In this document: positions 37,054 through 49,916 of the stretch, piece after piece
How positions within the stretch are numbered: the stretch's first letter is position 1
Layout of the letters: every line of letters starts with the position of its first letter
Assembly (NCBI RefSeq): GCF_030814475.1
Contig: NZ_JAUSVF010000002.1
Span: 248,001-312,000, forward strand
Direction of reading: 5' to 3'
DNA length: 64,000 bases
Origin: Pararhizobium capsulatum DSM 1112
GTDB taxonomy: Bacteria; Pseudomonadota; Alphaproteobacteria; Rhizobiales; Rhizobiaceae
Made by a program: the position numbers and the translations under genes
The notes under the pieces: model-generated
What the model saw: the letters and a program-made list of their open reading frames with translations, nothing else
What the model was told of the DNA's origin: nothing
The model's database searches: none

Positions 37054-37667
37054 GCCTGACAGAAAGGGTGGCAAGGCCCGACCGTGGCGTCGGAACCTTG
37101 CCGGTGCTAAGAGTTTCCGCCCATTAGCAAGACCACTCTACGTAACCTGTTGGCCCGTGGATCACCGTCATCCGGGGTGGACACGCAAAAATTCATGAGG
37201 CCAAATTGGCCATGCCGCCGCGACGGTCGTTCCCCCTTATTCCACCCCGCCGAACGCATGTTTCGACCGGCTGTGCTGGAGACCAGATGCGGGAATTTCC
37301 TGAAAAGGTGAGGACCGCTCCGAGGCGGAACGGAGCGGTCCCTGGCGTTTCGGAAGGTCCATGGGGGCTTCGGCGTTGGGGAAGGCCGAAGAACTATCTG
37401 GCGGGGGGGTAAAGCCAGTTTCCATGCGGGACACCTCAGAACGCCATACCACTCTAGTTCGGCATCTTTCATGACGAAACCATACAATGGTATGGGTTCT
37501 ATTTTCAGATGGCCAAATAAATGCACTCGCGATCCCCAATACAGACCCATAAGCGGATATTATCGTCACCGGCGATGACGCGGATGGGGGCGCATTGGCG
37601 GGCATCCGCGATAGATGATAGAATTGTAGCCACAAGAAACGGGTTGCGTTTGAATGGAGTTTTGAGA
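37054..37667. other. Intergenic region upstream of the GreA paralogue, with two inverted repeats
   Basis: No gene is supported in these 600 bases. GGACCGCTCCG (37312-37322) pairs perfectly with CGGAGCGGTCC (37331-37341) around an eight-base loop, with no T tract. AACCATAC (37478-37485) and GTATGGGTT (37490-37498) form an imperfect palindrome 170 bases before the GreA-like start and may be an operator. Minus-strand ORFs here lack ribosome binding sites and motifs. Confidence 0.4.
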
Positions 37668-38150
37668 GTGAGTGTCGCCTTCGTCAAAGAGGAAAGTGCA
37701 GAAACCGCTGCCGAAACCCTGCTGCCCGACCGCCCGATCTCGGTCCACCCGAACCTGGTGACGCAGGCGGGCCTGAAGGCCCTGGAACTGCAGCTGCAGG
37801 AGGCTCGCGAGGCCTACAATGCCACAAGCTCGATCGAAGACGTGAACGAAAGACGGCGGCAGGCCTCAGGCCCGATGCGCGATTTGCGTTATCTCACGGA
37901 ACGGGTTCGCACCGCTCAGCTTGTCGCGGATCCGACATCGACGGATACGGTCGCGTTCGGAAGCACCGTCACCTTCAGCCGCGACGATGGCCGCGTGCAG
38001 ACCTACCGTATCGTCGGCGAGGACGAGGCCGACCCGAAGGCCGGGTCGATTTCCTTCGTCTCCCCGGTTGCGCGGTTGCTGCAGGGCAAGACTGTCGGCG
38101 ATGTCGTGACCGTCGGTGGGCAGGAGCTCGAGATCATCACGATCGCGTAA
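37668..38150 (+). CDS. GreA/GreB-family transcription elongation factor (paralogue)
   Basis: A 160-residue protein with the two Gre domains: an N-terminal coiled coil (residues about 28-80, ALELQLQEAREAYNATSSIE, then RRQASGPMRDLRYLTERVR) and a C-terminal FKBP-like domain (FGSTVTFSRDDGRVQTYRIV, GEDEADPKAG, SFVSPVARLLQGKTVGDVV). Gre factors bind the RNA polymerase secondary channel and trigger transcript cleavage. The start is a GTG after TGGAG. The coiled-coil tip has an unusual sequence compared with housekeeping GreA, and it stands alone, so this is probably a second, specialised Gre factor. Confidence 0.85.
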   Translation: MSVAFVKEESAETAAETLLPDRPISVHPNLVTQAGLKALELQLQEAREAYNATSSIEDVNERRRQASGPMRDLRYLTERVRTAQLVADPTSTDTVAFGSTVTFSRDDGRVQTYRIVGEDEADPKAGSISFVSPVARLLQGKTVGDVVTVGGQELEIITIA

Positions 38151-38180
38151 ACCATTCGTCTCGCCTTCGCGACCACGGGG

Positions 38181-38987
38181 CTAGGCGCTGGCGGGCGCCG
38201 ATCTTCTGTCGGCGTGCCTGCGGCGCAACTCGACCAGCAAGGCGCCGAGAAGGGTGACAGTGATCAGGATGACGGCAAGGGCGTTGATGGTCGGCGTTAT
38301 GCCGCTGCGCACCTTGGAAAACACATAGACCGTCATCGTGTCATAGGGGCCGCGCGTGAACAGCGTGATGTTGAAGTTCTCGATCGATTGGAAGAAGGCG
38401 ATGACAGCGCCGGCGCCAAGCGCCGGGTAGAGATGCGGCAGCAGGATGCGGCGCAGCACCATGGCGTGGCTGGCGCCGAGGTCAAGGGCGGCCTCCTCCA
38501 GCGCCCGGTCGAAGCTTTGCAAGCGAGCAAGCACCAATAGCATCACGAAGGCGGCGATGTAGGAGACCTGGCCGAGCACGGCGAGGTGCAGGCCGGGCGG
38601 CACCGCGAGCGTGTTCCAGAACAGAAGCGTCGAAATGCCGATCACCGCGCCGGGTGTCAGGATCGGCGCCACCATCAGGCCGTAAAGTGCGGAGCGCATC
38701 GCGCCGCCGAGGCTGTTGATCAGGATCGCTGCAGCCGTGCCGATCGGCACCGAGAGCGCGACCACGGCGAGCGCGACCAGCACGGTGTTCTTGAAGGAGT
38801 TCAACAGGCGCGTGTCATTCCAGAGGTCCACGAACCACTGTAGCGTGAAGCCGACCCAGGGGAAGACCGAGGGAAAGCGCGAGGCGTTGAAGGCGGCGCC
38901 GCCCATGACGATCAGCGGCAGCAGCAGATAGGCGAGGAAGACGTAGAGATAGAGGCGAAACAACCAGTCCGATTTCTTCGTGGTCAT
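38181..38987 (-). CDS. ABC transporter permease, PotC-like (second system)
   Basis: A 268-residue permease with about six membrane segments (LYLYVFLAYLLLPLIVMGGA the first) and EAA loop ALEEAALDLGASHAMVLRRI. Family features match PotC/PotI. The ATG at 38987 has GAGG about eight bases upstream and lies eight bases after the preceding permease's stop. Last gene of a five-gene minus-strand run with the ureohydrolase at its head. Confidence 0.88.
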   Translation of the reverse strand: MTTKKSDWLFRLYLYVFLAYLLLPLIVMGGAAFNASRFPSVFPWVGFTLQWFVDLWNDTRLLNSFKNTVLVALAVVALSVPIGTAAAILINSLGGAMRSALYGLMVAPILTPGAVIGISTLLFWNTLAVPPGLHLAVLGQVSYIAAFVMLLVLARLQSFDRALEEAALDLGASHAMVLRRILLPHLYPALGAGAVIAFFQSIENFNITLFTRGPYDTMTVYVFSKVRSGITPTINALAVILITVTLLGALLVELRRRHADRRSAPASA

Positions 38988-38994
38988 GGCTGCC

Positions 38995-39879
38995 TCACTT
39001 CGCAATATCGGAAAGCTTGACGCGGAATATCCGCATCACCAGCGTTACGAACACCGTGCACAGGATCAGGAGCAGGAAGGCGTAGGCCGCACCCGTGTTC
39101 CAGTCGAGCGATTCAAACATCCATTGCTGGATGATTTCGGTAAACCAGCGGGAATTGGTGGACGCAAGCAACGTCGGCACGAGGATCGAGCCGGCCGACA
39201 GCATGAACACCATAACCGATCCCGAGGCGATGCCGGGTTTCGCATGGGGCAGGATCACCCGCCAGTGAATGCGCCACCACGGCGCACCGAGATCGTCCGC
39301 CGCCTCGATCTGGCTCGTATCCAGCGACTGGATGGCGTTGTAGATCGGGAACAGCATGAACAGCACATAGGTATAGACAAGGCCGATCATGACGCTGCGA
39401 AAGCCGGTCATCCAGCGGATCGGCTTGTCGATCAGGTGGATATTGATCAGGAAATAATTGAGCGGCCCCTTGAGCGACAGGATGATGAACCACGCGAAGG
39501 AGCGCATGATCTCGCTGACCCAGAGCGGAATGGTCAACAGCAGGAAGATTGTCGGCAGGCTCTTTGCCGAGGCTTTTTTCGAGAGGTAATAGGCCAGCGG
39601 GTAGGCCATGAAGAAGCACAGGGTTGTCACGATGGACGAATAGAGCACGGTCCAGAAGAACACGGAGATGTGGATCGGGCTCTGGAAGAAGGTCAGGTAG
39701 TTCTTCAGCGTATAGACGTCCTTCGGGCCGCCCATCTCGGTAACGGGAAGATAGGGCCGGAAGGAATTCTCGAAGAGATAGAGATTGGGAACGATCACCA
39801 GCACCAGCAGCCAGAAGGCGACCAGCAGGACCATCAGCGCGGTCAGCGAAACGCCGTAACGGTTGAGAAGATCCTTCAT
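38995..39879 (-). CDS. ABC transporter permease, PotB-like (second system)
   Basis: A 294-residue permease. First membrane helix at about 10-32 (VSLTALMVLLVAFWLLVLVI), then a periplasmic stretch with ENSFRPYLPVTEMGGPKDVY, and EAA loop QIEAADDLGAPWWRIHWRVI. It overlaps the ATPase gene stop by ATGA, so the two are translationally coupled. Pairs with the PotC-like subunit to form the channel. Confidence 0.88.
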   Translation of the reverse strand: MKDLLNRYGVSLTALMVLLVAFWLLVLVIVPNLYLFENSFRPYLPVTEMGGPKDVYTLKNYLTFFQSPIHISVFFWTVLYSSIVTTLCFFMAYPLAYYLSKKASAKSLPTIFLLLTIPLWVSEIMRSFAWFIILSLKGPLNYFLINIHLIDKPIRWMTGFRSVMIGLVYTYVLFMLFPIYNAIQSLDTSQIEAADDLGAPWWRIHWRVILPHAKPGIASGSVMVFMLSAGSILVPTLLASTNSRWFTEIIQQWMFESLDWNTGAAYAFLLLILCTVFVTLVMRIFRVKLSDIAK

Positions 39880-40970
39880 TCCGCCGCCACCCTGGCTGCG
39901 GTCACCTCATCCGCGAGGATGAAGGCCTTGTCGATATCGAAGGTGGCAAACAGTTTTGCGCCACGGTCCGGCACGGTGCCTATACCATCATTGCGGGTTT
40001 CGGAGACGATGGTGCGTCCCGCATGGTCCACGGTCTGGATCGAGATGAAATTGCCCTCGAAGGCGATATCGGTGACTTCGACGGGGATGGAGTTGCTCTG
40101 GCTCGTCGCAGCCTCGAGCGTCACATGCTCGGGGCGCACATAGAGCTTGGCGCTGGCATCGACATCGCGGCCGAGCCGGCCCCGGAAGACGCCGGTTGCC
40201 GTCTGGAAATCGCCGAACCCGTCGGAGCGTCCGGCGAGCGTGCCGGTGAAGATATTGCTCTCGCCGACAAAGGCCGCCACGAAACCGTTGGCGGGCGTGT
40301 TGTAGATTTCGCGCGGTGGTGCCACCTGCTGCAGCTTGCCATGGGACATGACGCCGACGCGGTCCGACATCGCCAAGGCCTCACCCTGGTCATGGGTGAT
40401 GTAGATGAAGGTGACGTTGGTGCGCTTCTGGATGGCGCGGAGTTCAGCGCGCATATGCTGGCGCAGCTTGAGATCAAGCGCGGAGAGCGGTTCGTCGAGC
40501 AGCATGACGGAGGGTTCGACCGCGAGCGCGCGGGCAATCGCCACGCGCTGCTTCTGGCCACCGGAAAGCTGGCTCACCGCCTTGTCGGCAGCATCGGGCA
40601 GATCGACGAGCGCCAAAAGTTCTTCGGCGCGCTTGCGGCGGGCCTTCTTGTCGACGCCGCGCGCCTCAAGCCCGAAGGCGATGTTTTCCCAGACCGGCAT
40701 CAGCGGAAAGAGGGCGAGGTTCTGGAATATGAGGGCAGTCGGCCGCTGGTTGGGGCGCTGGTCGCGCATATCCCTGCCGCCGATGCTGATCGTGCCTGAT
40801 GTCGGCGAAACGAAGCCGGAAACCATGCGCAGGATGGTCGTCTTGCCGCAGCCGGAAGGCCCGAGAAACGAGAAGAATTCACCGGCCTCTATCGACAGCG
40901 AGACATCGTCCACCGCACGGAACGATCCGAAATCCGCACACACATTCTGAAGTTCGACACTGGCACTCAT
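39876..40970 (-). CDS. ABC transporter ATP-binding protein, PotA-like (second system)
   Basis: A 364-residue ATPase: Walker A GPSGCGKTT at about 37-45, signature LSGGQKQRVAIARAL, Walker B VMLLDEPLSALD, switch YITHDQGEALAMSD, then a TOBE regulatory domain with LYVRPEHVTLEA. Belongs to the same operon as the polyamine-type binding protein and two permeases. Clearly distinct in sequence from the first system's ATPase at 7650-8735, so the two transporters are not a recent duplication. Confidence 0.9.
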   Translation of the reverse strand: MSASVELQNVCADFGSFRAVDDVSLSIEAGEFFSFLGPSGCGKTTILRMVSGFVSPTSGTISIGGRDMRDQRPNQRPTALIFQNLALFPLMPVWENIAFGLEARGVDKKARRKRAEELLALVDLPDAADKAVSQLSGGQKQRVAIARALAVEPSVMLLDEPLSALDLKLRQHMRAELRAIQKRTNVTFIYITHDQGEALAMSDRVGVMSHGKLQQVAPPREIYNTPANGFVAAFVGESNIFTGTLAGRSDGFGDFQTATGVFRGRLGRDVDASAKLYVRPEHVTLEAATSQSNSIPVEVTDIAFEGNFISIQTVDHAGRTIVSETRNDGIGTVPDRGAKLFATFDIDKAFILADEVTAARVAAE

Positions 40971-41024
40971 TGTCTGGAATTCGTTCCCTTATCGCCTTCG
41001 ATGGCCGTTTTTCTATCTGTGAGA

Positions 41025-41048
41025 TGCCGGCCGCTTGCGCGGCCGGCA
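41025..41048 (-). promoter_or_regulatory. GC-rich intercistronic hairpin after the binding-protein gene
   Basis: TGCCGGCCGC pairs perfectly with GCGGCCGGCA around TTGC, between the binding-protein stop and the ATPase start. No T tract. As in the polyol operon it probably favours the binding protein over downstream subunits. Confidence 0.55.
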
Positions 41049-41064
41049 AAAGGGTCAGGCGGCT

Positions 41065-42198
41065 TTAAGCGGCCTTGTACTTGTCGGCATATTCGCCGCG
41101 CTTGGAGAGGAACCATGCGGCCTGGCTCGGCCACCAGTACATCTTGCTGACCGCGTCGCCCGGGAAGCTTGCCTTGTAGAACTCCGACACGGTCGGATCC
41201 ATCAGGTCGATGCCGCCCTTGCCGACCGGGTTTGCGGAGAAGGCGGTCGCCCAGAGAGCGGAGCCTTCCGCAGTCGAAACCCACTTGGCGAATTCATGGG
41301 CCTGCTCGATGTTCTTGGCGCTCTTCAGGAGCACGAGGCCCTGGTTCCAGGCAAAGGCGCCTTCCTTCGGCGCGAGGTAGGCATAGCCGCCTTCCTTCTT
41401 CATGTTGAAGCCGGTCGAATCCCAGCACAGGCCAAGCACAGCGCCATTGGTGCGGAACGCCGCCTGCGCGTCGTTTTCGCCGCTCCAGAACTGGACGATG
41501 TTGCCCTTGGCCTTGATGGCTTCGGCAAGGGCGATGTCCCACAGCTCGACCATGGTGGCTTCGTCCTTGTAGCCGTCGATCCACGGCTTCGGCAGCTTGC
41601 CCTCGGCATCGAGCCAGCGGCCCATGGCCGCAAGCGCGGAGTGGCCGCGCACGGTCACCTGGTTTGCCGGATTGAAGAGGTCGGCGAGGCTGGCCTTGCC
41701 ATATTCCGTCGGGAAACCTTCGGTGGAATAGACCAGCGCTTCGGTGCCCCAGACGGAGGGCACGATCAGCTTCTGGCCGTCGATCGTCGCCAGCGTATCG
41801 GCGGAACCATCGGCGAGACCCGGCGCATAGTTGTCCACCGTCAGCTTCTTGAGGTCCCAACCCTGAAGCAGGCCGTTGGAATTCCAGGCTGAAACGCGGT
41901 CAAGCGTCGGCTCGACAACGTCGGAGGTGCCGGTTGCCAGCGAGATCTTCGCCTGGGCAAACATGGTGTCCTGGTCGGGCTGCTCGGTAAAGTTCACCTT
42001 GATGCCGGTTGCCTTTTCGAAGGCCGGGAAGACCTTTTCGGCCATGCCGGGATAGCCGGCCCAGCCGGTGAAGTTCACTTCGCCGGAAGACGCAAGTGCC
42101 CCCGACGAAATGATGGCGGGGGCAGCCAGAACGCCGGCGCCAATGGCGGTAGATTTCAGAACAGTGCGCCGTGTCAGCGGCGTTTTCAGAATGCTCAT
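41065..42198 (-). CDS. ABC transporter substrate-binding protein, PotD-like, Tat-exported (second system)
   Basis: A 377-residue periplasmic binding protein with a twin-arginine signal (TRRTVLKSTAIGAGVLAAPA, arginines 10-11) ending near ASS at 36-38. The mature part has GEVNFTGWAGYPGMAEKVFP and PSVWGTEALVYSTEGFPTEY, as in PotD/PotF-class proteins. ATG with GGGAG upstream. Gene order binding protein, ATPase, two permeases, with the ureohydrolase gene 74 bases upstream, suggests the ligand is a guanidino or amino compound that the ureohydrolase acts on. Confidence 0.88.
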   Translation of the reverse strand: MSILKTPLTRRTVLKSTAIGAGVLAAPAIISSGALASSGEVNFTGWAGYPGMAEKVFPAFEKATGIKVNFTEQPDQDTMFAQAKISLATGTSDVVEPTLDRVSAWNSNGLLQGWDLKKLTVDNYAPGLADGSADTLATIDGQKLIVPSVWGTEALVYSTEGFPTEYGKASLADLFNPANQVTVRGHSALAAMGRWLDAEGKLPKPWIDGYKDEATMVELWDIALAEAIKAKGNIVQFWSGENDAQAAFRTNGAVLGLCWDSTGFNMKKEGGYAYLAPKEGAFAWNQGLVLLKSAKNIEQAHEFAKWVSTAEGSALWATAFSANPVGKGGIDLMDPTVSEFYKASFPGDAVSKMYWWPSQAAWFLSKRGEYADKYKAA

Positions 42199-42272
42199 CG
42201 GTAAGCTCCCAGTTTGTATGTTGCGTTAAAGTTATCCGCCGGTTCCCGGTCTTGCTGTTGTCGGTAGAAGTT

Positions 42273-43247
42273 TTACGCCGCTAGCTTGAGCGCCTTGCTT
42301 TCGGCAATCACGCAGAGCAGTTCGAACAGGATGGTCGCGCCCAGAAATGCGGTGCCGCCGCTCGGATCGACCGGCGGCGAAACCTCCACGAGATCGGCGC
42401 CGATGATGTTCAATCCCTGTAATGCGCGAACGACCTGAAGCGCCTGAAAACTGTTGGGACCGCCGATCTCGGGTGTCCCTGTGCCGGGTGCAAAGGTCGG
42501 GTCGACAAAATCGATGTCGTAGCTGACATAGGTCTCGGCCGATCCGACAATCTCGCGGGCTTCGGCCATAACGTCATCGACCCCGCGAGCGTGAAACTCT
42601 TCGATCGGAATGACCCGGATGCCGACGGCATCGGCAAAGTCGCGATCCTCGAAATCATAGGCTGAGCCGCGAATGCCGATCATGCAGACCCGCTTGGGAT
42701 CGAGCAGTTCTTCCTCGACCGCGCGGCGGAAAGGCGTGCCGTGGGTGTATTTGAAGCCGCCGAAATAGGAGTGGAAGAGATCGGTGTGGCTGTCGAAATG
42801 CACCATGCCGAGTGGCCGGTCCTTCGCCAGCGCCCGGAGGATCGGAAGAGTACATAGATGATCGCCGCCAGCGCTGAGCGGTATGATCCCGGCGTCGCGC
42901 ACCTTGTCGTAGAAGGCGGTGATCCGCGCAAGGGAATCGGCGACATCGGCGGGATTGGGGCCGACATCGCCCAGATCTGCGCAGCGCGCCAGATCATAGG
43001 GGCGAACCTTCGTTGCGCCATTCTGGAAGCGGACCATCGTCGAACAGTCGCGCAACTGGCGCGGTGCGTGACGCGGACCCGGCCGGTTGGTGGTGCCGCC
43101 GTCCCAGGGAACGCCGATCAGGCCGATCTCCACCTCGGACAGGCGCGGATCGTCAAAGGTAATGTGCGGCAATCGCATGAAGGTTGCGATGCCGGCAAAA
43201 CGTGGAAGATCGACCCCGGAAACCGGGTGAAAACCGCCAAAAGCCAT
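42273..43247 (-). CDS. Ureohydrolase (agmatinase/guanidino-acid hydrolase family)
   Basis: A 324-residue binuclear metallohydrolase of the arginase/agmatinase superfamily. All six metal ligands are visible: His130 in SAGGDHLC, Asp152/His154/Asp156 in HFDSHTDLFH, and Asp244/Asp246 in SYDIDFVDPTFAPGTGTPE. Members cut guanidino compounds to urea and an amine (agmatine, guanidinobutyrate, guanidinopropionate; some nickel enzymes cut free guanidine). The substrate cannot be read from sequence. The ATG at 43247 follows AGGGGA. It heads the operon of the second polyamine-type transporter and is divergent from the TSUP/SDR pair, linking urea release to those genes. Confidence 0.9.
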   Translation of the reverse strand: MAFGGFHPVSGVDLPRFAGIATFMRLPHITFDDPRLSEVEIGLIGVPWDGGTTNRPGPRHAPRQLRDCSTMVRFQNGATKVRPYDLARCADLGDVGPNPADVADSLARITAFYDKVRDAGIIPLSAGGDHLCTLPILRALAKDRPLGMVHFDSHTDLFHSYFGGFKYTHGTPFRRAVEEELLDPKRVCMIGIRGSAYDFEDRDFADAVGIRVIPIEEFHARGVDDVMAEAREIVGSAETYVSYDIDFVDPTFAPGTGTPEIGGPNSFQALQVVRALQGLNIIGADLVEVSPPVDPSGGTAFLGATILFELLCVIAESKALKLAA

Positions 43248-43688
43248 CAATTCCCCTCGCGGCTTTGCCGCTGTTATTGGCGACAAGCTAACACGATGAT
43301 AATGGCTGGCAATGATATATTTACGGAAGCTTCAACGTTGCTACAACTATAGCGATATTTTTCGATATCAAAGTCATGGAAGCCCAAATATACGTCAACA
43401 ATAGCAAAAAAATTCATCAATATGATTGAATATTAGACAGAATGTTTACGGGCCGCGGGGTCGTCTCCGAGCGGAATTCCGCGTTTTCTCTGAGAAAACA
43501 GCATTGTTGCGTCATTTCAGGGCGCCGTGGATGGAAATGCGCAAGCACAGGCTCTGGCTCCATGTTCGCAAGGGGCTGGCCCTGTCTGATGACGGTGGCG
43601 GCAGCTATGAACTCCTCAAGCTGTCCCTGATCGGCTATCGCTATGACAGCCGTACGGCCAGTGTGCATAACCCGACAGGAGATCAGGA
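43248..43688. promoter_or_regulatory. Divergent control region of ureohydrolase operon and TSUP/SDR operon
   Basis: About 440 bases. The part next to the ureohydrolase (43290-43440) is AT-rich, with GATATTTTTCGATATC at about 43352-43367, a palindromic patch. I looked for guanidine riboswitches and saw none. The 43440-43688 part is GC-rich and open in both strands; a possible 60-residue product from 43531 would overlap the TSUP start, but it has no recognisable family and I do not call it. Confidence 0.4.
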
Positions 43689-44429
43689 ATGGATGCGCTC
43701 GTCATCGGGGCCGTCACCATCGGCGCCGCGGCCTTTCGCGGTGTCACCGGCTTTGGTTACGCGCTGGTCGCGGCGCTAGGCTTTGCCGGCATCTTTTCGC
43801 CGACCGGCATGGTGCCGTTCATCCTGATCAACGATCTCATGCTCACCGGCTTTACCGTCGTCGATCGCGGCCGCAGCCCCATCGATTGGCCGGTGACGCG
43901 GATTCTGATCGCTGCCGGCCTGCTTGGCGCGCTCTGCGGCAGCCTGCTCGTTCCTTACCTGGAAGGTGATCTTGCCCGCATCCTCGTCTCTGCGACCATC
44001 GTGGTTGCGGCCTGCACCGCGCTGATCCGCCAACCGCCGGTCTGGCTGGCACACAAGGCGTTCGGCATCGTCATCGGCTTTGTTACCGGCATTCTTCTGT
44101 CAGCCTTTGCCGTCGGCGGTCCGCTGATCGCCGCATGGCTGCTGGCCGGCGGTGTGAAGCGCGACTATGTGCGCGGCACATTGGCGGTGTTCTTCGGCCT
44201 GATCGACCTGTTCACGCTGGCAAGCCGCGCCTACATGGGCGCTGTTGATGCCGAGTTGCTGCGCCTCCTGATGATCTATTGCCCGCTGACGCTGGCGGGC
44301 TTTGCCGCCGGTTACTTCCTTTCCCATCGCCTGCCGGCCTCAGTCTGGGATCGCGTATCGGGCGTCGGTCTTATCTTTATCGCCATTGTCGGTTTAGCGC
44401 AGACGGTTTACGCGATCGCCTTTGCCTGA
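43689..44429 (+). CDS. TSUP (TauE/SafE) family membrane exporter, IsfE-like candidate
   Basis: A 246-residue membrane protein with about eight hydrophobic segments. The two-repeat TauE/SafE pattern is seen in GAAAFRGVTGFGYALVAALG near the start and GFVTGILLSAFAVGGPLIAA at about 135-155. Family members export sulfite, sulfoacetate, isethionate or other organosulfonates. GGAGATCAGG precedes the ATG. Forty bases downstream starts a YdfG/IsfD-like reductase, and a taurine-type aminotransferase follows, so an isethionate exporter (IsfE-like) is the best guess; this role is inference. Confidence 0.82.
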   Translation: MDALVIGAVTIGAAAFRGVTGFGYALVAALGFAGIFSPTGMVPFILINDLMLTGFTVVDRGRSPIDWPVTRILIAAGLLGALCGSLLVPYLEGDLARILVSATIVVAACTALIRQPPVWLAHKAFGIVIGFVTGILLSAFAVGGPLIAAWLLAGGVKRDYVRGTLAVFFGLIDLFTLASRAYMGAVDAELLRLLMIYCPLTLAGFAAGYFLSHRLPASVWDRVSGVGLIFIAIVGLAQTVYAIAFA

Positions 44430-44468
44430 ATACACTGACCAGATCATTTGACGTGAAAGGATCGACCC

Positions 44469-45221
44469 ATGGCCAAGACGGCTCTCATCACCGGCGCCAC
44501 CTCCGGCTTCGGCAAGGCGGTTGCGCAGCGTTTCGCAAGGGAAGGCTGGAACGTGGTGCTGACTGGCCGCCGTCAGGATCGGCTCGATGCGCTGGTTGCC
44601 GAACTGGGCGGGCCGGAACGCGCCCTGGCGCTCTGCTTCGACATCCGCGACGAGACTGCCACGAGGGCCGCGCTGGCCGGGCTGCCGGCGGGCTTTGCCG
44701 ATATCAACGCTCTCGTCAACAATGCCGGTCTCGCGCTGGGCTATAACCCGGCCCAAACCGCCGATCTCGATCAATGGAAGACGATGATCGACACCAACAT
44801 TACCGGGCTGGTGACGATCACCCGGCTGCTGCTCGATACGCTGATCGCGCAACGGGGTGTGGTGATCAATCTGGCCTCGATTGCCTCCAGCTGGCCCTAT
44901 CCCGGCGGCAATGTCTATGGCGGCACCAAGGCCTTCGTGCGTCAGTTTTCGCTGGGGCTGCGCAGCGACCTGTCAGCTAAGGGCGTGCGGGTGACGTCGA
45001 TCGAACCCGGCCTTTCGGAAAGCGAATTCACGCTTGTCCGCAACGGCGGCGATCAGGCGGCTTACGATAAATTCTACGCCGGCACCAATCCGCTGCAGCC
45101 GGAAGATATTGCTGAAAGCATCTACTGGGTCGCGTCGCTGCCTGATCATGTCAACATCAACAGCCTCGAGATCATGCCGGTCAGCCAGTCCTGGGCACCG
45201 TTCCAGATTCATCGGGAGTAG
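44469..45221 (+). CDS. SDR reductase of the YdfG/IsfD type (sulfoacetaldehyde or malonic-semialdehyde reductase candidate)
   Basis: A 250-residue short-chain dehydrogenase: TGATSGFG at 8-15, basic GRRQDR at 33-38 (points to NADPH), NNAG at 84-87, catalytic Ser137, Tyr150 and Lys154 (YGGTK). The ending NINSLEIMPVSQSWAPFQIH is characteristic of YdfG-type hydroxyacid dehydrogenases, the group that includes IsfD, the sulfoacetaldehyde reductase making isethionate during taurine-nitrogen assimilation, and YdfG, which reduces malonic semialdehyde. The neighbouring TSUP exporter and aminotransferase favour an IsfD-like role. Substrate is inferred, family is firm. Confidence 0.88.
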   Translation: MAKTALITGATSGFGKAVAQRFAREGWNVVLTGRRQDRLDALVAELGGPERALALCFDIRDETATRAALAGLPAGFADINALVNNAGLALGYNPAQTADLDQWKTMIDTNITGLVTITRLLLDTLIAQRGVVINLASIASSWPYPGGNVYGGTKAFVRQFSLGLRSDLSAKGVRVTSIEPGLSESEFTLVRNGGDQAAYDKFYAGTNPLQPEDIAESIYWVASLPDHVNINSLEIMPVSQSWAPFQIHRE

Positions 45222-45229
45222 GTGGCGTG

Positions 45230-45262
45230 CTCCCTTTTCTTCCAGTTCGGGAGAAAAGGGAG
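45230..45262. terminator. Hairpin repeat, copy 3, between convergent SDR and aminotransferase genes
   Basis: CTCCCTTTTCTTCC pairs with GGGAGAAAAGGGAG (one G-T pair) around AGTTC. It is a variant of the hairpins at 6397-6425 and 27654-27680 and here occupies a terminator position for both genes. Confidence 0.7.
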
Positions 45263-45281
45263 TTGCCGCTTTTGACAGCTG

Positions 45282-46664
45282 TCAACCAAACACCTTGGTC
45301 AGGGCGTTGCCGATCGCGTCGGTGATGCCGTCGATATCGTTTTCGGTAGCGATCAGGGCCGGGGCGAGGCAGAGCGTGTTGTTGAGGCCCGGCAGCGAAC
45401 GGTTGGTGGCGCCGATGATCACGCCCTGGGCGGCGCAATCGGCAACGACGGCCTGCACCATCTTTTCCGGTGCAGGCTCCTTCGTCTGCCTGTCGGAAAC
45501 CAGTTCCGCGCCGCAGAACAGGCCGGCGCCGCGCACATCGCCGATCACGGCATGGCGTTCCATCAGCGCATTGAGATTTCCGACCAGCCGCTCGCCCATC
45601 CTGAGCGTATTGTCGAGCAAGCCTTCGTCCTCGATGATGCGCATGTTTTCAAGTGCTGCCGCAGGTCCCGCCACACAGCCGCCGAAGGTCGAGATGTCGC
45701 GGAAATAGGACAACGGATCGTCCGCATCGTCCTTGAACATCGCGAAGATCTTTTCCGTGGTGACCGTGCAGGAAATGGCGGCGTAGCCGGAGGCCACACC
45801 CTTGGCCATGGTGACGAAATCGGGCTCGATGCCGTAGTTCTGGTAGCCGAACCATTTGCCGGTACGGCCGACGCCGCAGACGACTTCGTCGATGTGAAGA
45901 AGGATGTCGTATTTCCTGCAGATCTCCTGCACCTTCTCCCAGTAGCCCCGGGGCGGTACGATGACGCCGCCGCCAGCGGTGACAGGTTCAAGGCAGAGAA
46001 GGCCGATCGTATCCGGCCCCTCGCGCAGGATCACCTCTTCGATAGCCTCGGCGGCGCGCTCGCCGTAGTTTTCGATCGCGCCGTACTGGCTGCGATATTC
46101 CAGGCAATGCGGCACCTCGACGAAGCCGGGAGGCATCGGGCCATATTGCTCGCGGCGCTGCGGCTGGCCGGCGGCGGCCAGCGTGCCGATGGTGGTGCCG
46201 TGATAGTCGCGATCGCGGTAGAGGATCTTGTACTTGCGGCCTCCATGGTGGCGGTGCGACATCTGCCGCACCATCTTGAAGACTTTCTCGTTGGCCTCCG
46301 AACCGGAATTTGAATAATAGACGCGGGTGAGGCCCGGCATCTTGGAAATCAGCTGCTGGGCGAATTTCGCGCCGGCGATCGAGCCGGCGGAATTGGCGAA
46401 ATAGTTGAGCTTGACGAGCTGGTCGCGCACAGCGTCGGCGATGCTGGTGCGCCCGAAGCCGACATTGACCGTCCAGACGCCGCCGGAAAGCGCGTCGAGA
46501 TATTCCTTGCCCGTCGCATCCCAGACCCGCATGCCCTTGCCTTCGACGAAGATACGCGGATCAACGGTTTCATAAGGCTTGTGCTGGCTGAGATGATGCC
46601 AGACATGGGCGCGATCCGCCTCGATGACATCTCGGATATCGTTGGGCTGCGAGGCTATGTTCAT
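45282..46664 (-). CDS. Class III aminotransferase, taurine/beta-alanine aminotransferase-like
   Basis: A 460-residue fold-type I PLP aminotransferase. Landmarks: LDALSGGVWTVNVGFGRTSI, the phosphate-loop YYSNSGSEANEKVFKM, LLHIDEVVCGVGRTGKWFG (cofactor aspartate), and the Schiff-base lysine in FVTMAKGVASGYAAI. The long N-terminal part HVWHHLSQHKPYETVDPRIF resembles taurine-pyruvate aminotransferases. These enzymes transfer the amino group from omega-amino acids or taurine to pyruvate or 2-oxoglutarate. Upstream in the same direction lies a MocR regulator like TauR. Taurine as substrate is a likely but unproven reading; beta-alanine or GABA are alternatives. Confidence 0.87.
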   Translation of the reverse strand: MNIASQPNDIRDVIEADRAHVWHHLSQHKPYETVDPRIFVEGKGMRVWDATGKEYLDALSGGVWTVNVGFGRTSIADAVRDQLVKLNYFANSAGSIAGAKFAQQLISKMPGLTRVYYSNSGSEANEKVFKMVRQMSHRHHGGRKYKILYRDRDYHGTTIGTLAAAGQPQRREQYGPMPPGFVEVPHCLEYRSQYGAIENYGERAAEAIEEVILREGPDTIGLLCLEPVTAGGGVIVPPRGYWEKVQEICRKYDILLHIDEVVCGVGRTGKWFGYQNYGIEPDFVTMAKGVASGYAAISCTVTTEKIFAMFKDDADDPLSYFRDISTFGGCVAGPAAALENMRIIEDEGLLDNTLRMGERLVGNLNALMERHAVIGDVRGAGLFCGAELVSDRQTKEPAPEKMVQAVVADCAAQGVIIGATNRSLPGLNNTLCLAPALIATENDIDGITDAIGNALTKVFG

Positions 46665-46820
46665 GCGGCATCTCCCTGTCGCTCATGGATGTCGCCAAAC
46701 GCGTGCAACGGCCTGACGACATCAGAAAGAATCTTGGACTGCAGAGCTTGTAACACGCGGTTGTCTTTGCACGAGGCTTTTTGCCGCTGGCTCCAGGAAA
46801 ACGCTGCTCTGGCCCCTGGT

Positions 46821-48332
46821 TCAGGCCGTATGGCACAATGCTCGCCTGCCGCAGTCTTCCACGATTGCGCCGAGCTTGACGAGACCGCTCTCGATACGAT
46901 GTGTGGCAATGGAGCTGAAGCCGATACGGAAGAAATTCCGCCCCTGGGCTGGAACGGAAAAGAAGATGTCGCCGGCCTCGACAAGGATGCCCTGCGCTCG
47001 CGCTATCTCGGCCATTGCCCTTGCATCAAGCTCCGGCGGGCCTTCGATCCAGAAGCTCGTTGCTCCGTCGCCGCGCCTCAAGCGGCAGGACGGCATGGTT
47101 TCCGGCAATAATCTCTCGATCAGTCGCGCCCGTTCGAGGATCGCGGCGCCTGCCCGGGAAAGATGTTGCCGGTAATGGCCGAGCCCGATGAAGGTTGCGA
47201 GCGAACGCTGGTTGTTGGTTGGTGGATGCCGGAGCATCAACCGGCGCAACACGCGTAATTCATCGATCACCGGCTTCGGCGCGACCACGTAGCCGATGCG
47301 CAGGCCGGGCGCGAGCACCTTGGAGAAGCTGCCGATATAGATGACACGCTCGGCCCTATCGAGGCTCTTCAGCGAGGGAATATCACTATCGGCCTCGACG
47401 GAAAGATCGGCGTCGTAGTCGTCCTCGATCAGCAGTACGTCGCTACGGGCGGCCGCATCGAGCAGGGCATTGCGCCGCGCCAGCGGCATCACTGATGTCG
47501 TGGGACATTGGTGGCCGGCGGTCACGAACGCGATGTCGCAGCGCCCGAAGGCATCATCCGGTATCAGGCCATGGTCGTCGCTGGTGAGGAAGACGGGCTT
47601 CATCGTCGCCAGCCGCATCATGTTGCGAAGGTCGGGATAGCCGGGATCTTCCAGCCCCACCGGCGTATCGCGAGCGACAAACAACTGCACGAGCATGGAG
47701 AGCGCCTGTTGCGAGCCGAGCGTGACCATGACCTCGCCCGGCTGCGCAGAAATCCCGCGCCGCGGCAGCACCTGGACTCTCAGCTGCTCGATGAGATCGG
47801 GATCGTCATCGTCGATCATGTCCGCCGCCCAGACCTGTATCTCCTGAACGCTCGACGTGGCGCGCACGGCCTCGCGCCAGTTGTTGGTTGGAAACAGGCC
47901 GGGATCGTACTGGCCGGAGAGGAAAGGGTAGGGATAGGAGCGCCAGTCGCGCGGCTTGCTGATCTGCGGCAGGCGCGACGGCTTCATGGCAAAGCGCGTC
48001 GCCCAGTCTGAAGGGCGTCGTGTGGCCTCTGTAATAACAGCCGGTTTCACGACCGCGCAGACAAAGATGCCGCTCCTCTGGCGCGAGGCGAGAAAACCTT
48101 CGTCGATGAGCTGCTGGTAAGCCGCCGTCACCGTGTTGCGGCCGATGCCGAGACGCGCGGCAAGTTCCCGCGACGAGGGCAGCCGCGCATCGGTCGGCAG
48201 CAGACCGGTTTCCACCGCATGGACGATCATCCGGCGGATCTGGATGTTCAGCGGCTGGCCGTCGCGATCCAGAACGCCGAAAACCTGATGCCAGGTCTTC
48301 TCGGTCTGAAGGTTAAGCTGGGAGATTTTCAT
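46821..48332 (-). CDS. MocR-family PLP-dependent transcriptional regulator, TauR-like
   Basis: A 503-residue fusion of a GntR-type winged helix (residues about 28-90: LPSSRELAARLGIGRNTVTA, then AYQQLIDEGFLASRQRSGIF) to an aminotransferase-fold domain with the PLP lysine in YIGSFSKVLAPGLRIGYV. MocR proteins use PLP as sensor for an amine; TauR of Rhodobacter activates taurine transaminase genes and GabR controls GABA use. Gene lies 156 bases upstream of the aminotransferase, same strand, consistent with control of the cluster. I did not find a confident TauR direct repeat in the gap. Confidence 0.9.
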   Translation of the reverse strand: MKISQLNLQTEKTWHQVFGVLDRDGQPLNIQIRRMIVHAVETGLLPTDARLPSSRELAARLGIGRNTVTAAYQQLIDEGFLASRQRSGIFVCAVVKPAVITEATRRPSDWATRFAMKPSRLPQISKPRDWRSYPYPFLSGQYDPGLFPTNNWREAVRATSSVQEIQVWAADMIDDDDPDLIEQLRVQVLPRRGISAQPGEVMVTLGSQQALSMLVQLFVARDTPVGLEDPGYPDLRNMMRLATMKPVFLTSDDHGLIPDDAFGRCDIAFVTAGHQCPTTSVMPLARRNALLDAAARSDVLLIEDDYDADLSVEADSDIPSLKSLDRAERVIYIGSFSKVLAPGLRIGYVVAPKPVIDELRVLRRLMLRHPPTNNQRSLATFIGLGHYRQHLSRAGAAILERARLIERLLPETMPSCRLRRGDGATSFWIEGPPELDARAMAEIARAQGILVEAGDIFFSVPAQGRNFFRIGFSSIATHRIESGLVKLGAIVEDCGRRALCHTA

Positions 48333-48420
48333 TCAAGCCTCAACGCAAGAACCGGGCCACGTGTGCATCCCTCGGCCACCCAGCGCGGAAGCATCAGTCG
48401 ATGTCTCGGCGAGGCCTTTC

Positions 48421-48855
48421 CTAGGAATCATCCGTTGTTGCCTGACCGAACCACAGGACGGCGGAAACCTTGAACAGGAAGGCTGTCGTCCAGCCGAACA
48501 GCAGGATGCCGTTCACCCCTTCCAGCGCGCTTGCAAGCCGCCATTTTCCCACCAGCGTCACATCGCCATAGCCGATCGTTGCGAAGGTGATCGCTGAAAA
48601 ATAGATGGCTTCTTCAAGGTCCTGCAACTCGCCGGTCAGCCTGTAGGCAAGAGCCCAGATCATGATCTCGATGAGATGCGCGACGACGAAACCGAGGACG
48701 AAAAAATAGCTCCAGCCGAGGCGCGACAGCGGCGAGAGATTGCCCGCGTTACCGAGCGGGCGTGCGCCGCAGTTGTAAAGCAGCATAACCGCAGCGCCAT
48801 GGACGACGATCGTGGCGAGCAGGAGAGCTGTGGCAATGACGATCACCAGGAGCAT
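48421..48855 (-). CDS. Small two-helix potassium channel protein
   Basis: A 144-residue membrane protein with a first helix (LVIVIATALLLATIVVHGAA), a second at about 48-70, a pore helix and the selectivity filter TIGYGD at 93-98, then a final helix. This is the ion_trans_2 type of voltage-independent K+ channel, without a cytosolic RCK domain, so gating is not evident. The ATG at 48855 has GGAGG upstream; the open frame begins ten codons earlier. Next to PPK2, it starts a block of ion and stress genes. Confidence 0.88.
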   Translation of the reverse strand: MLLVIVIATALLLATIVVHGAAVMLLYNCGARPLGNAGNLSPLSRLGWSYFFVLGFVVAHLIEIMIWALAYRLTGELQDLEEAIYFSAITFATIGYGDVTLVGKWRLASALEGVNGILLFGWTTAFLFKVSAVLWFGQATTDDS

Positions 48856-48977
48856 AGGTTTCCTCCATGAATGTTGCGTGTGCATAAAATTGCAGCGAAG
48901 CAGCTCGGTTGCGGCCTGCCGGGCGTCGGCGGATCCAACCGTTTGTAAAGCCGCTGCACGCTTTTGCGCGACTTGCC

Positions 48978-49916
48978 TTAATCGACCTCGGCGAGAAGCT
49001 GGGCCTTCACCCGTTGCAGTTCCGCCCGTCGTGCGTCATCGACGACGGGCATGGCCAGCTCGAGCTTTTCGAAGACCGCAGTGATGACTTCGGATACGGC
49101 AAGGCGGGCGAACCATTTGTTGTCGGCGGGTATGACGAACCACGGCGCAGCTTGGGTGCTGGTGTTGGACAGCATCTCCTCGAATGCCTTCTGGTAGTCG
49201 TCCCAGTGCTGGCGCTCGGCAAAGTCGGCCGGCGAGAATTTCCAGTTCTTCTCGGCCTCATCAATTCGCGAGAGAAAGCGCCGCTTCTGCTCCTTCTTCG
49301 AGACGTTCAGGAAGAACTTCACGATGATCGTGCCGTTTCTGCGCAGATATTTCTCGAAGTTGTTGATGTCCTTGAAGCGCTTTTCCCAGATGTCTTTTCC
49401 GCGCGTCTCGACCGGCAGTTTCTGCTTGATCAGCAACTCGGGATGCACCCGAACGACGACCACCTCTTCGTAATAGGAACGGTTGAAAATGCCGATCATT
49501 CCGCGCCCCGGCAGCGCGACCGAGGCGCGGCGAAGATAGTCATGATCCAGGTCATCCGAGGTCGGAGCCTTGAAGCTCGTCACCTGACAGCCCTGCGGAT
49601 TGATGCCGGACATGACGTGGCGGATCGCCCCATCCTTGCCGGCCGCGTCCATGGCCTGGAAAATGATCAGGACGGAATAGACGTCCTGCGCATAGAGCAT
49701 TTCCTGCATGTCCGAGAGGCGTTGGACATTTTTGGCCACATGCTGCAACGCGCCGGCCTTGTCATCGTAACCGCCGGTAAAATCGGTATCGAAATCCTTC
49801 TTCAGATTTACCTTTTTGCCGGGCTTGACAGCGATGTCGCGCAATCTGAATTTGACCCGTCCCCCATCCCCGATTTCAATTTCACGTTTCTCGTCCAGGT
49901 CCACGTCGATTTTCAT
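48978..49916 (-). CDS. Polyphosphate kinase 2 (PPK2)
   Basis: A 312-residue cytosolic kinase with Walker A-like FQAMDAAGKDGAIRHVMSG at about 87-105 and the Walker B/lid region IGIFNRSYYEEVVVVRVHPE, plus WKFSPADFAERQHWDDYQKA, all diagnostic for PPK2. It uses polyphosphate to phosphorylate NDP or AMP; the class cannot be assigned by eye, though the single domain excludes the fused class II form with two domains. The ATG at 49916 is preceded by GGAG. Monocistronic; the gene may serve nucleotide regeneration under stress. Confidence 0.9.
   Translation of the reverse strand: MKIDVDLDEKREIEIGDGGRVKFRLRDIAVKPGKKVNLKKDFDTDFTGGYDDKAGALQHVAKNVQRLSDMQEMLYAQDVYSVLIIFQAMDAAGKDGAIRHVMSGINPQGCQVTSFKAPTSDDLDHDYLRRASVALPGRGMIGIFNRSYYEEVVVVRVHPELLIKQKLPVETRGKDIWEKRFKDINNFEKYLRRNGTIIVKFFLNVSKKEQKRRFLSRIDEAEKNWKFSPADFAERQHWDDYQKAFEEMLSNTSTQAAPWFVIPADNKWFARLAVSEVITAVFEKLELAMPVVDDARRAELQRVKAQLLAEVD

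Follow-up and report, generated by a model that had tools for sequence, protein, structure and literature searches.

The window analysed here is a stretch of 64,000 nucleotides from Pararhizobium capsulatum DSM 1112 (contig NZ_JAUSVF010000002.1, positions 248,001 to 312,000 of the forward strand), and our subject is a block of nine genes at 38181..48332 that we propose to act on taurocyamine (guanidinoethanesulfonate). An initial annotation had recognised a polyamine-type importer, a ureohydrolase, a TauE-family exporter, a reductase, a taurine-type aminotransferase and a regulator here, and comparison with Pfam and NCBIfam bears out both the nine open reading frames (ORFs) and their families. 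Loci and genomes used for comparison carry L and G numbers respectively. The features of the block are as follows.

38181..39005, minus strand: permease 2 of an ATP-binding cassette (ABC) importer, PotC-type (ORF, Pfam/NCBIfam; copies 84-89% identical in the same operon of L006, L008, L009 and L011).
38995..39879, minus strand: permease 1 of the importer, PotB-type (ORF, Pfam/NCBIfam, synteny).
39876..40970, minus strand: ATPase of the importer, PotA/PhnT-type (ORF, Pfam/NCBIfam, synteny).
41065..42198, minus strand: the importer's periplasmic binding protein, distantly related to putrescine/spermidine-binding proteins (relatives of 66-69% identity adjoin xsc in G111 and G129).
42273..43286, minus strand: ureohydrolase, proposed taurocyamine amidinohydrolase (likely true start near 43247).
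43554..43581, minus strand: putative operator for MocR, a direct repeat of the form RNCCAG-N16-RNCCAG with period 22 (lies in the divergent region, closer to the TSUP gene).
43689..44429, plus strand: TSUP (TauE/SafE family) permease, proposed isethionate exporter in the role of IsfE (Pfam).
44469..45221, plus strand: short-chain dehydrogenase/reductase (SDR), proposed IsfD-like sulfoacetaldehyde reductase (sequence comparison).
45282..46664, minus strand: class-III aminotransferase, Tpa orthologue, from taurine or hypotaurine to pyruvate (orthology).
46787..46814, minus strand: the period-22 direct repeat again, here upstream of the aminotransferase.
46821..48332, minus strand: MocR-family regulator dependent on pyridoxal phosphate (its counterpart in the TauABC version of Rhizobium bangladeshense is 65% identical).
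48345..48359, minus strand: sigma-54-like -24/-12 element TGGCCCGGTTCTTGC, 12 nt before the regulator ATG.

From the gene content, orthology, synteny, repeat, cassette swap and absence of an xsc over cut-off in the genome, all of which are observed directly, we infer the substrate, every catalytic step, the export and the operator and promoter functions of the following scheme. The Pot-type importer would take up taurocyamine, which the ureohydrolase would split into urea and taurine. The Tpa orthologue would then pass the amino group of taurine to pyruvate, yielding alanine and sulfoacetaldehyde, the IsfD-like SDR would reduce the sulfoacetaldehyde to isethionate, and the TSUP permease would export it. 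The MocR regulator, whose own gene probably has a sigma-54 promoter under nitrogen control, would act through paired boxes spaced by 22 bp on the aminotransferase and on the divergent region between TSUP-SDR and ureohydrolase. We give a probability of roughly three in four to this reading, a single regulated module that scavenges nitrogen from taurocyamine. The synteny, the common repeat, the exchange of the cassette with TauABC and its linkage to xsc argue for one module and for a sulfonate substrate, and so support the route from taurocyamine through taurine and sulfoacetaldehyde to isethionate that the initial annotation had put forward, with 3-guanidinopropionate or two unrelated modules as its alternatives.

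The importer consists of two permeases, an ATPase and a binding protein of the spermidine/putrescine type, as assigned by Pfam and NCBIfam. The aminotransferase is a Tpa orthologue, with predicted taurine:pyruvate activity. Of 31 matched plasmid records, five have the orthologue labelled "hypotaurine--pyruvate aminotransferase Tpa" by NCBI, and most of the others name it only by fold class. Outside the four full sets described below there are 43 aminotransferase-bearing genomes, and 11 of these were fetched, including G110. With G110 left out, an aminotransferase about 80% identical to that of the window adjoins a TauR-type regulator and xsc in seven of ten loci, six of which also have tauABC-type genes; the TauR-xsc partner was not found in L124, L125 or L127. 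The SDR finds its best match in 2nwq, labelled a probable dehydrogenase (348.1 bits). Its closest family model is that of YdfG, where it stays below cut-off (305.7 against 411 bits), and it scores higher against Klebsiella IsfD (6ixj, 304.7 bits) than against the YdfG-like 3asu (265.0 bits). The SDR adjoins Tpa in the window-type loci and in R. bangladeshense, Azospirillum ramasamyi and A. oryzae. Next to it stands the permease of the TSUP family (PF01925, Pfam TauE/SafE, 60.7 bits), to which we take IsfE to belong.

The arrangement recurs. Scanning the GTDB species collection yielded at least 596 stretches; the nine window proteins were mapped onto the best 80 of these, some of which are short. 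All nine genes occur in order in four of the 80 loci (L006, L008, L009 and L011). In 247 genomes of the family, where at the cut-offs used the ureohydrolase has orthologues in 28, the aminotransferase in 47, the SDR in 18 and the TSUP permease in six, these four genes lie close together in G000, G133, G211 and G271. G133 is the genome of L011, and G211 and G271 are four-gene sets, with MocR and the permeases outside that count. The four genes are therefore together in seven distinct genomes: that of the window, L006, L008, L009, L011, G211 and G271. The recurrence of nine genes in order at four loci, and of four genes in G211 and G271 as well, makes the grouping more than chance. The initial annotation had held that its proposal would fall if the ureohydrolase/ABC block never occurred with the aminotransferase/TSUP/SDR block; four of the 80 loci carry both. 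L021 and L023 keep the ureohydrolase and importer, with a MocR of 44-45% identity.

The two halves of the block also share a sequence element. CCAG-N18-CCAG is found once in the gap between MocR and aminotransferase and once in the divergent gap in all six MocR-linked genomes (window, L006, L007, L008, L009 and L011), and in none of the six loci without that MocR (L010 and L012-L016). Across the 64 kb of the window the fuller form, RNCCAG-N16-RNCCAG, occurs twice (0.47 expected; 5 of 100 shuffles reach two), and these gaps hold both copies. R. bangladeshense has the period-22 repeat in both gaps, and G110 has it in one gap and, judged by eye, a one-mismatch form in the other. In several cases studied, the sites that MocR proteins bind are direct repeats with a spacing of two or three helical turns (PMC5320631). 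Seven of the nine loci tried have a sigma-54-like GG-N10-GC element whose distance to the MocR ATG is exactly 12 nt, and which is conserved where the sequence around it has diverged. The window contains a single match to this element (0.36 expected), and as 30 of 100 shuffles also contain one, the match is not significant alone. If used, the element suggests a near-leaderless, nitrogen-controlled MocR transcript, and nitrogen control would fit the known formation of isethionate from taurine by Klebsiella under nitrogen limitation (from a title cited in PMC6616044). No Rfam match, to a guanidine riboswitch or to any other known RNA, reaches its gathering score in positions 37500-49000.

A sister version of the block exists in which the importer and hydrolase are exchanged for a taurine importer. 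On R. bangladeshense p1, tauCBA and TSUP-SDR diverge, and the aminotransferase and MocR follow on the other strand, with identities to the window proteins of 56% (TSUP), 77% (SDR), 84% (aminotransferase) and 65% (MocR); no ureohydrolase was found in this 18.7-kb stretch. This is the window layout with TauABC in place of the ureohydrolase and importer, in other words a cassette swap. Conversely, TauABC was not found in the window cluster, where the Pot-type importer takes its place. A. ramasamyi and A. oryzae have the order tauABC-TSUP-SDR-aminotransferase with MocR divergent, and G110 has MocR-Tpa-SDR-TSUP with a TauA over cut-off (316.9 against 304.25) and no ureohydrolase at E 1e-120. At L117:3007-5966, next to the TauABC version of G110, lie CuyA, a D-cysteate sulfo-lyase that passes its cut-off, and an aminotransferase-like gene that passes none; this may be a further entry point for a sulfonate. 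An operon annotated "agmatinase"-ABC beside the tau module of A. oryzae (L187:7041-12035) was not counted as a relative, its ureohydrolase being only 45% identical and nearer to another paralogue of the window genome (68%). Elsewhere in the window genome, L191:4312-13568 carries a TauA that passes its cut-off, genes resembling TauB and TauC that do not pass theirs, an SsuA-type gene and an alkanesulfonate monooxygenase; these tau/ssu-type genes probably serve sulfur supply.

Xsc acts on sulfoacetaldehyde, and the ureohydrolase is coupled to its gene in other genomes. L021 and L023, the only ones of the 80 loci with xsc in a reference search for tauABC, tauR, xsc and other importers, carry the ureohydrolase-importer cassette (74-85% identical); behind it stand ackA, a TauR-type regulator and xsc (7.2-7.4 kb downstream). 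In both G035 and G231 a tauABC operon that begins with the ureohydrolase lies opposite tauR-xsc, in G162 the ureohydrolase lies between tauR and tauA with xsc on another contig, and in G029 an aminotransferase and the ureohydrolase face tauR-xsc. Among the 28 family genomes with the ureohydrolase, xsc is within 10 kb of it in at least five (G029, G035, G231, G262 and G201, the last two being the L021 and L023 contigs), a minimum since the stretch read was just 1.5 kb for several of these 28. A simple uniform model puts the chance of this at about 5e-7, to be taken as a guide only in view of kinship, with G035 and G231 in one genus and G201 and G262 in another. The window genome itself has no xsc over cut-off (best 293 against 676.4 bits). 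Over 21 chosen rows, xsc passes the cut-off in six; in the other 15, which carry either the G110 module or a ureohydrolase linked to Tpa and represent 14 distinct genomes (G133 and G682 are the same), it does not. In a class sample of 385 genomes, 51 have the ureohydrolase, 45 have xsc and 15 have both, more than expected (Fisher p 1.6e-4, uncorrected for kinship).

The importer is tied to C2 sulfonates on its own, because it is divergent from xsc without a ureohydrolase in G111 and G129, where the binding protein is 69 and 66% identical. The binding protein was found at E 1e-90 or better in 12 of 139 genomes examined, at 43-48% identity in seven of them; no xsc was found near its 52% relative in G122. 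The importer family is divergent from xsc, without a ureohydrolase, at L196:6295-12651 and L197:6192-12466. At L021:7676-9544 and L023:7768-9672 a chemoreceptor gene (sCache_2 and MCP signalling domain) is divergent from the ureohydrolase-importer operon and possibly senses the same compound. Parts of a third importer type, NitT/TauT, stand alongside marine-group ureohydrolase orthologues in L051, L060, L062, L075 and L083. We consider it quite probable that ureohydrolase and importer form a portable cassette for taurocyamine import and hydrolysis, which swaps with TauABC at the same operator and can be joined to taurine back ends of two or more kinds, among them isethionate export and Xsc desulfonation.

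The ureohydrolase belongs to the arginase family (PF00491, 286 bits, Pfam), and all six metal ligands noted in the initial annotation are present, in GGDH at 140 (H143), DSHTD at 165 (D165, H167 and D169) and DID at 257 (D257 and D259). Its annotated TTG start at 43286 probably lies some 13 codons ahead of the true one, because four relatives have an in-frame stop at alignment residues 11-18. It remains below the cut-offs of the NCBI curated models for the agmatinase SpeB (TIGR01230, 169.6 against 174.3 bits; PRK02190, 254.2 against 302). In a tree of 150 sequences, built by a quick method that gave a long-branch warning, the window and tau-linked ureohydrolases fall into one clade of 107 rows (SH-aLRT 96), and GpuA lies outside it in a separate clade of 19 rows (support 94), not grouped with the window enzyme. 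Residue 170 of the window enzyme is Leu in all 20 window-type and tau-linked rows compared, against Thr in all 16 rows of the GpuA subclade. The Arg that matches R72 of GbuA, a capping residue, is present in the window enzyme and kept in 145 of 150 rows. The counterpart of this Arg in human GDAH is modelled near the sulfonate of taurocyamine. For human GDAH, PMC9772407 reports that the R105 form prefers taurocyamine, with guanidinobutyrate next and hypotaurocyamine and guanidinopropionate also used, that it hydrolyses taurocyamine about three times faster than the next substrate with a KM above 50 mM, and that the G105 variant is less active on it. The window enzyme has the ureohydrolase superfamily and metal ligands in common with GpuA, GbuA and human GDAH, and differs from all three in having taurine genes as its genomic partners. 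The enzyme of EC 3.5.3.17 acts slowly on taurocyamine.

A number of results weigh against the taurocyamine reading. The best solved relatives of the ureohydrolase are the 3-guanidinopropionase GpuA (3nip, 408.6 bits) and then the guanidinobutyrase GbuA (3nio, 307.9 bits), and the substrate specificities of such enzymes overlap. The equivalent of GpuA Tyr157, reportedly described by Lee in 2011 as an active-site residue, is kept in the window enzyme, although this discriminates weakly because 141 of 150 rows have Tyr. The aminotransferase beside the ureohydrolase in G029 is of the AptA type, and AptA-type aminotransferases use beta-alanine. L007 has eight of the nine genes, without TSUP, L010 has seven, without TSUP and MocR, and L012-L016 keep solely the aminotransferase and ureohydrolase, adjacent to each other. 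L010 and L012-L016 have flanking genes in common, so the latter have probably lost SDR and importer and kept the pair; some relatives do without TSUP and SDR. At 67 of the 80 loci no orthologue of aminotransferase, SDR, TSUP, importer, tauABC or xsc was found in the stretch, in some cases a short one. None of the 15 ureohydrolase-xsc pairs of the class sample lies within 50 kb on one contig, ten of them being on different draft contigs, and class-wide physical linkage was dropped. Five of these 67, the marine-group loci, have the NitT/TauT-type importer parts, at 26-51% identity. As to regulation, the exact repeat was not found in A. ramasamyi and the sigma-54-like element was found neither there nor in L117 (G110). 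The repeat is at least 268 nt away from the ureohydrolase start, so any control of that gene by it is putative. The regulator, of the GntR/MocR family, passes the NCBI model for PdxR (330 against 320 bits), a match that does not discriminate because the TauR-type protein of L021 passes it too. The 67 loci, the missing class linkage and the dispensable TSUP and SDR weaken a clade-wide claim of taurocyamine hydrolysis more than the claim for this cluster. Mixed use of guanidino acids by the window system may also occur, and calls for caution.

Of the other explanations the best placed, though unlikely, is a route from 3-guanidinopropionate, with the ureohydrolase yielding urea and beta-alanine, the aminotransferase malonic semialdehyde and the SDR 3-hydroxypropionate. 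GpuA is the top solved relative and its Tyr157 is conserved, but GpuA falls outside the window clade and has the other residue at 170. The SDR matches the YdfG model, below its cut-off, yet is nearer to IsfD than to the YdfG-like structure. An omega-aminotransferase of AptA type does adjoin the ureohydrolase in G029; given the substrate of Xsc, however, a beta-alanine route leaves the xsc linkage in L021, L023, G035 and G231 unexplained, and the TSUP-SDR-aminotransferase-MocR set also exists with tauABC. Less likely still is that the main substrate is the sulfinate hypotaurocyamine, converted to hypotaurine and deaminated by a hypotaurine-pyruvate aminotransferase. The NCBI name on five records would suit this, as would the activity of human GDAH on hypotaurocyamine (PMC9772407), but TauABC stands in for the cassette in the sister version, and both Xsc and IsfD need a sulfonate aldehyde. 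The sulfinate aldehyde loses its sulfur group spontaneously, and would have no need of either enzyme. It is just as improbable that a guanidino-compound importer/hydrolase and a taurine/isethionate unit are unrelated neighbours, each half being found also without the other, when the four genes stand together in seven genomes, share the repeat, swap cassettes at one site and show a second coupling to xsc.

The proposed taurocyamine module has much in common with the known module for taurine nitrogen and isethionate, in which one cluster likewise combines an aminotransferase and an IsfD-like SDR with a proposed exporter, and which likewise uses the nitrogen and discards the C2 sulfonate. The window cluster differs from it in having the ureohydrolase and Pot-type importer for TauABC, an aminotransferase of the Tpa type rather than Toa, and a MocR regulator with a sigma-54-like element. 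With taurine dissimilation (TauABC, Tpa, TauR and Xsc; PMC5320631) it shares the Tpa orthologue and a MocR-type regulator, and such operons contain relatives of the window ureohydrolase. In contrast to taurine dissimilation, the window genome lacks an xsc over cut-off and the sulfonate is predicted to be exported intact. At L137:8982-10963 (Ruegeria pomeroyi DSS-3) and L140, ureohydrolase relatives are paired with another protein of the arginase family and an ABC importer of the glycine-betaine type, and L140 has an amidinotransferase and a Zn hydrolase in addition; this is perhaps a different guanidino pathway.

The initial annotation knew of no described gene cluster for this pathway, and in agreement with it no bacterial gene set for taurocyamine appeared among the open-access matches listed, which were mostly titles and the starts of abstracts. 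Taurocyamine is a phosphate acceptor in some lower animals (PMC9772407). If the reading is true, a group of genes annotated as "agmatinase" would be guanidinosulfonate hydrolases, a substrate could be assigned to one importer family, and a connection between the cycling of guanidine and that of sulfonates could be tested in laboratory rhizobia.

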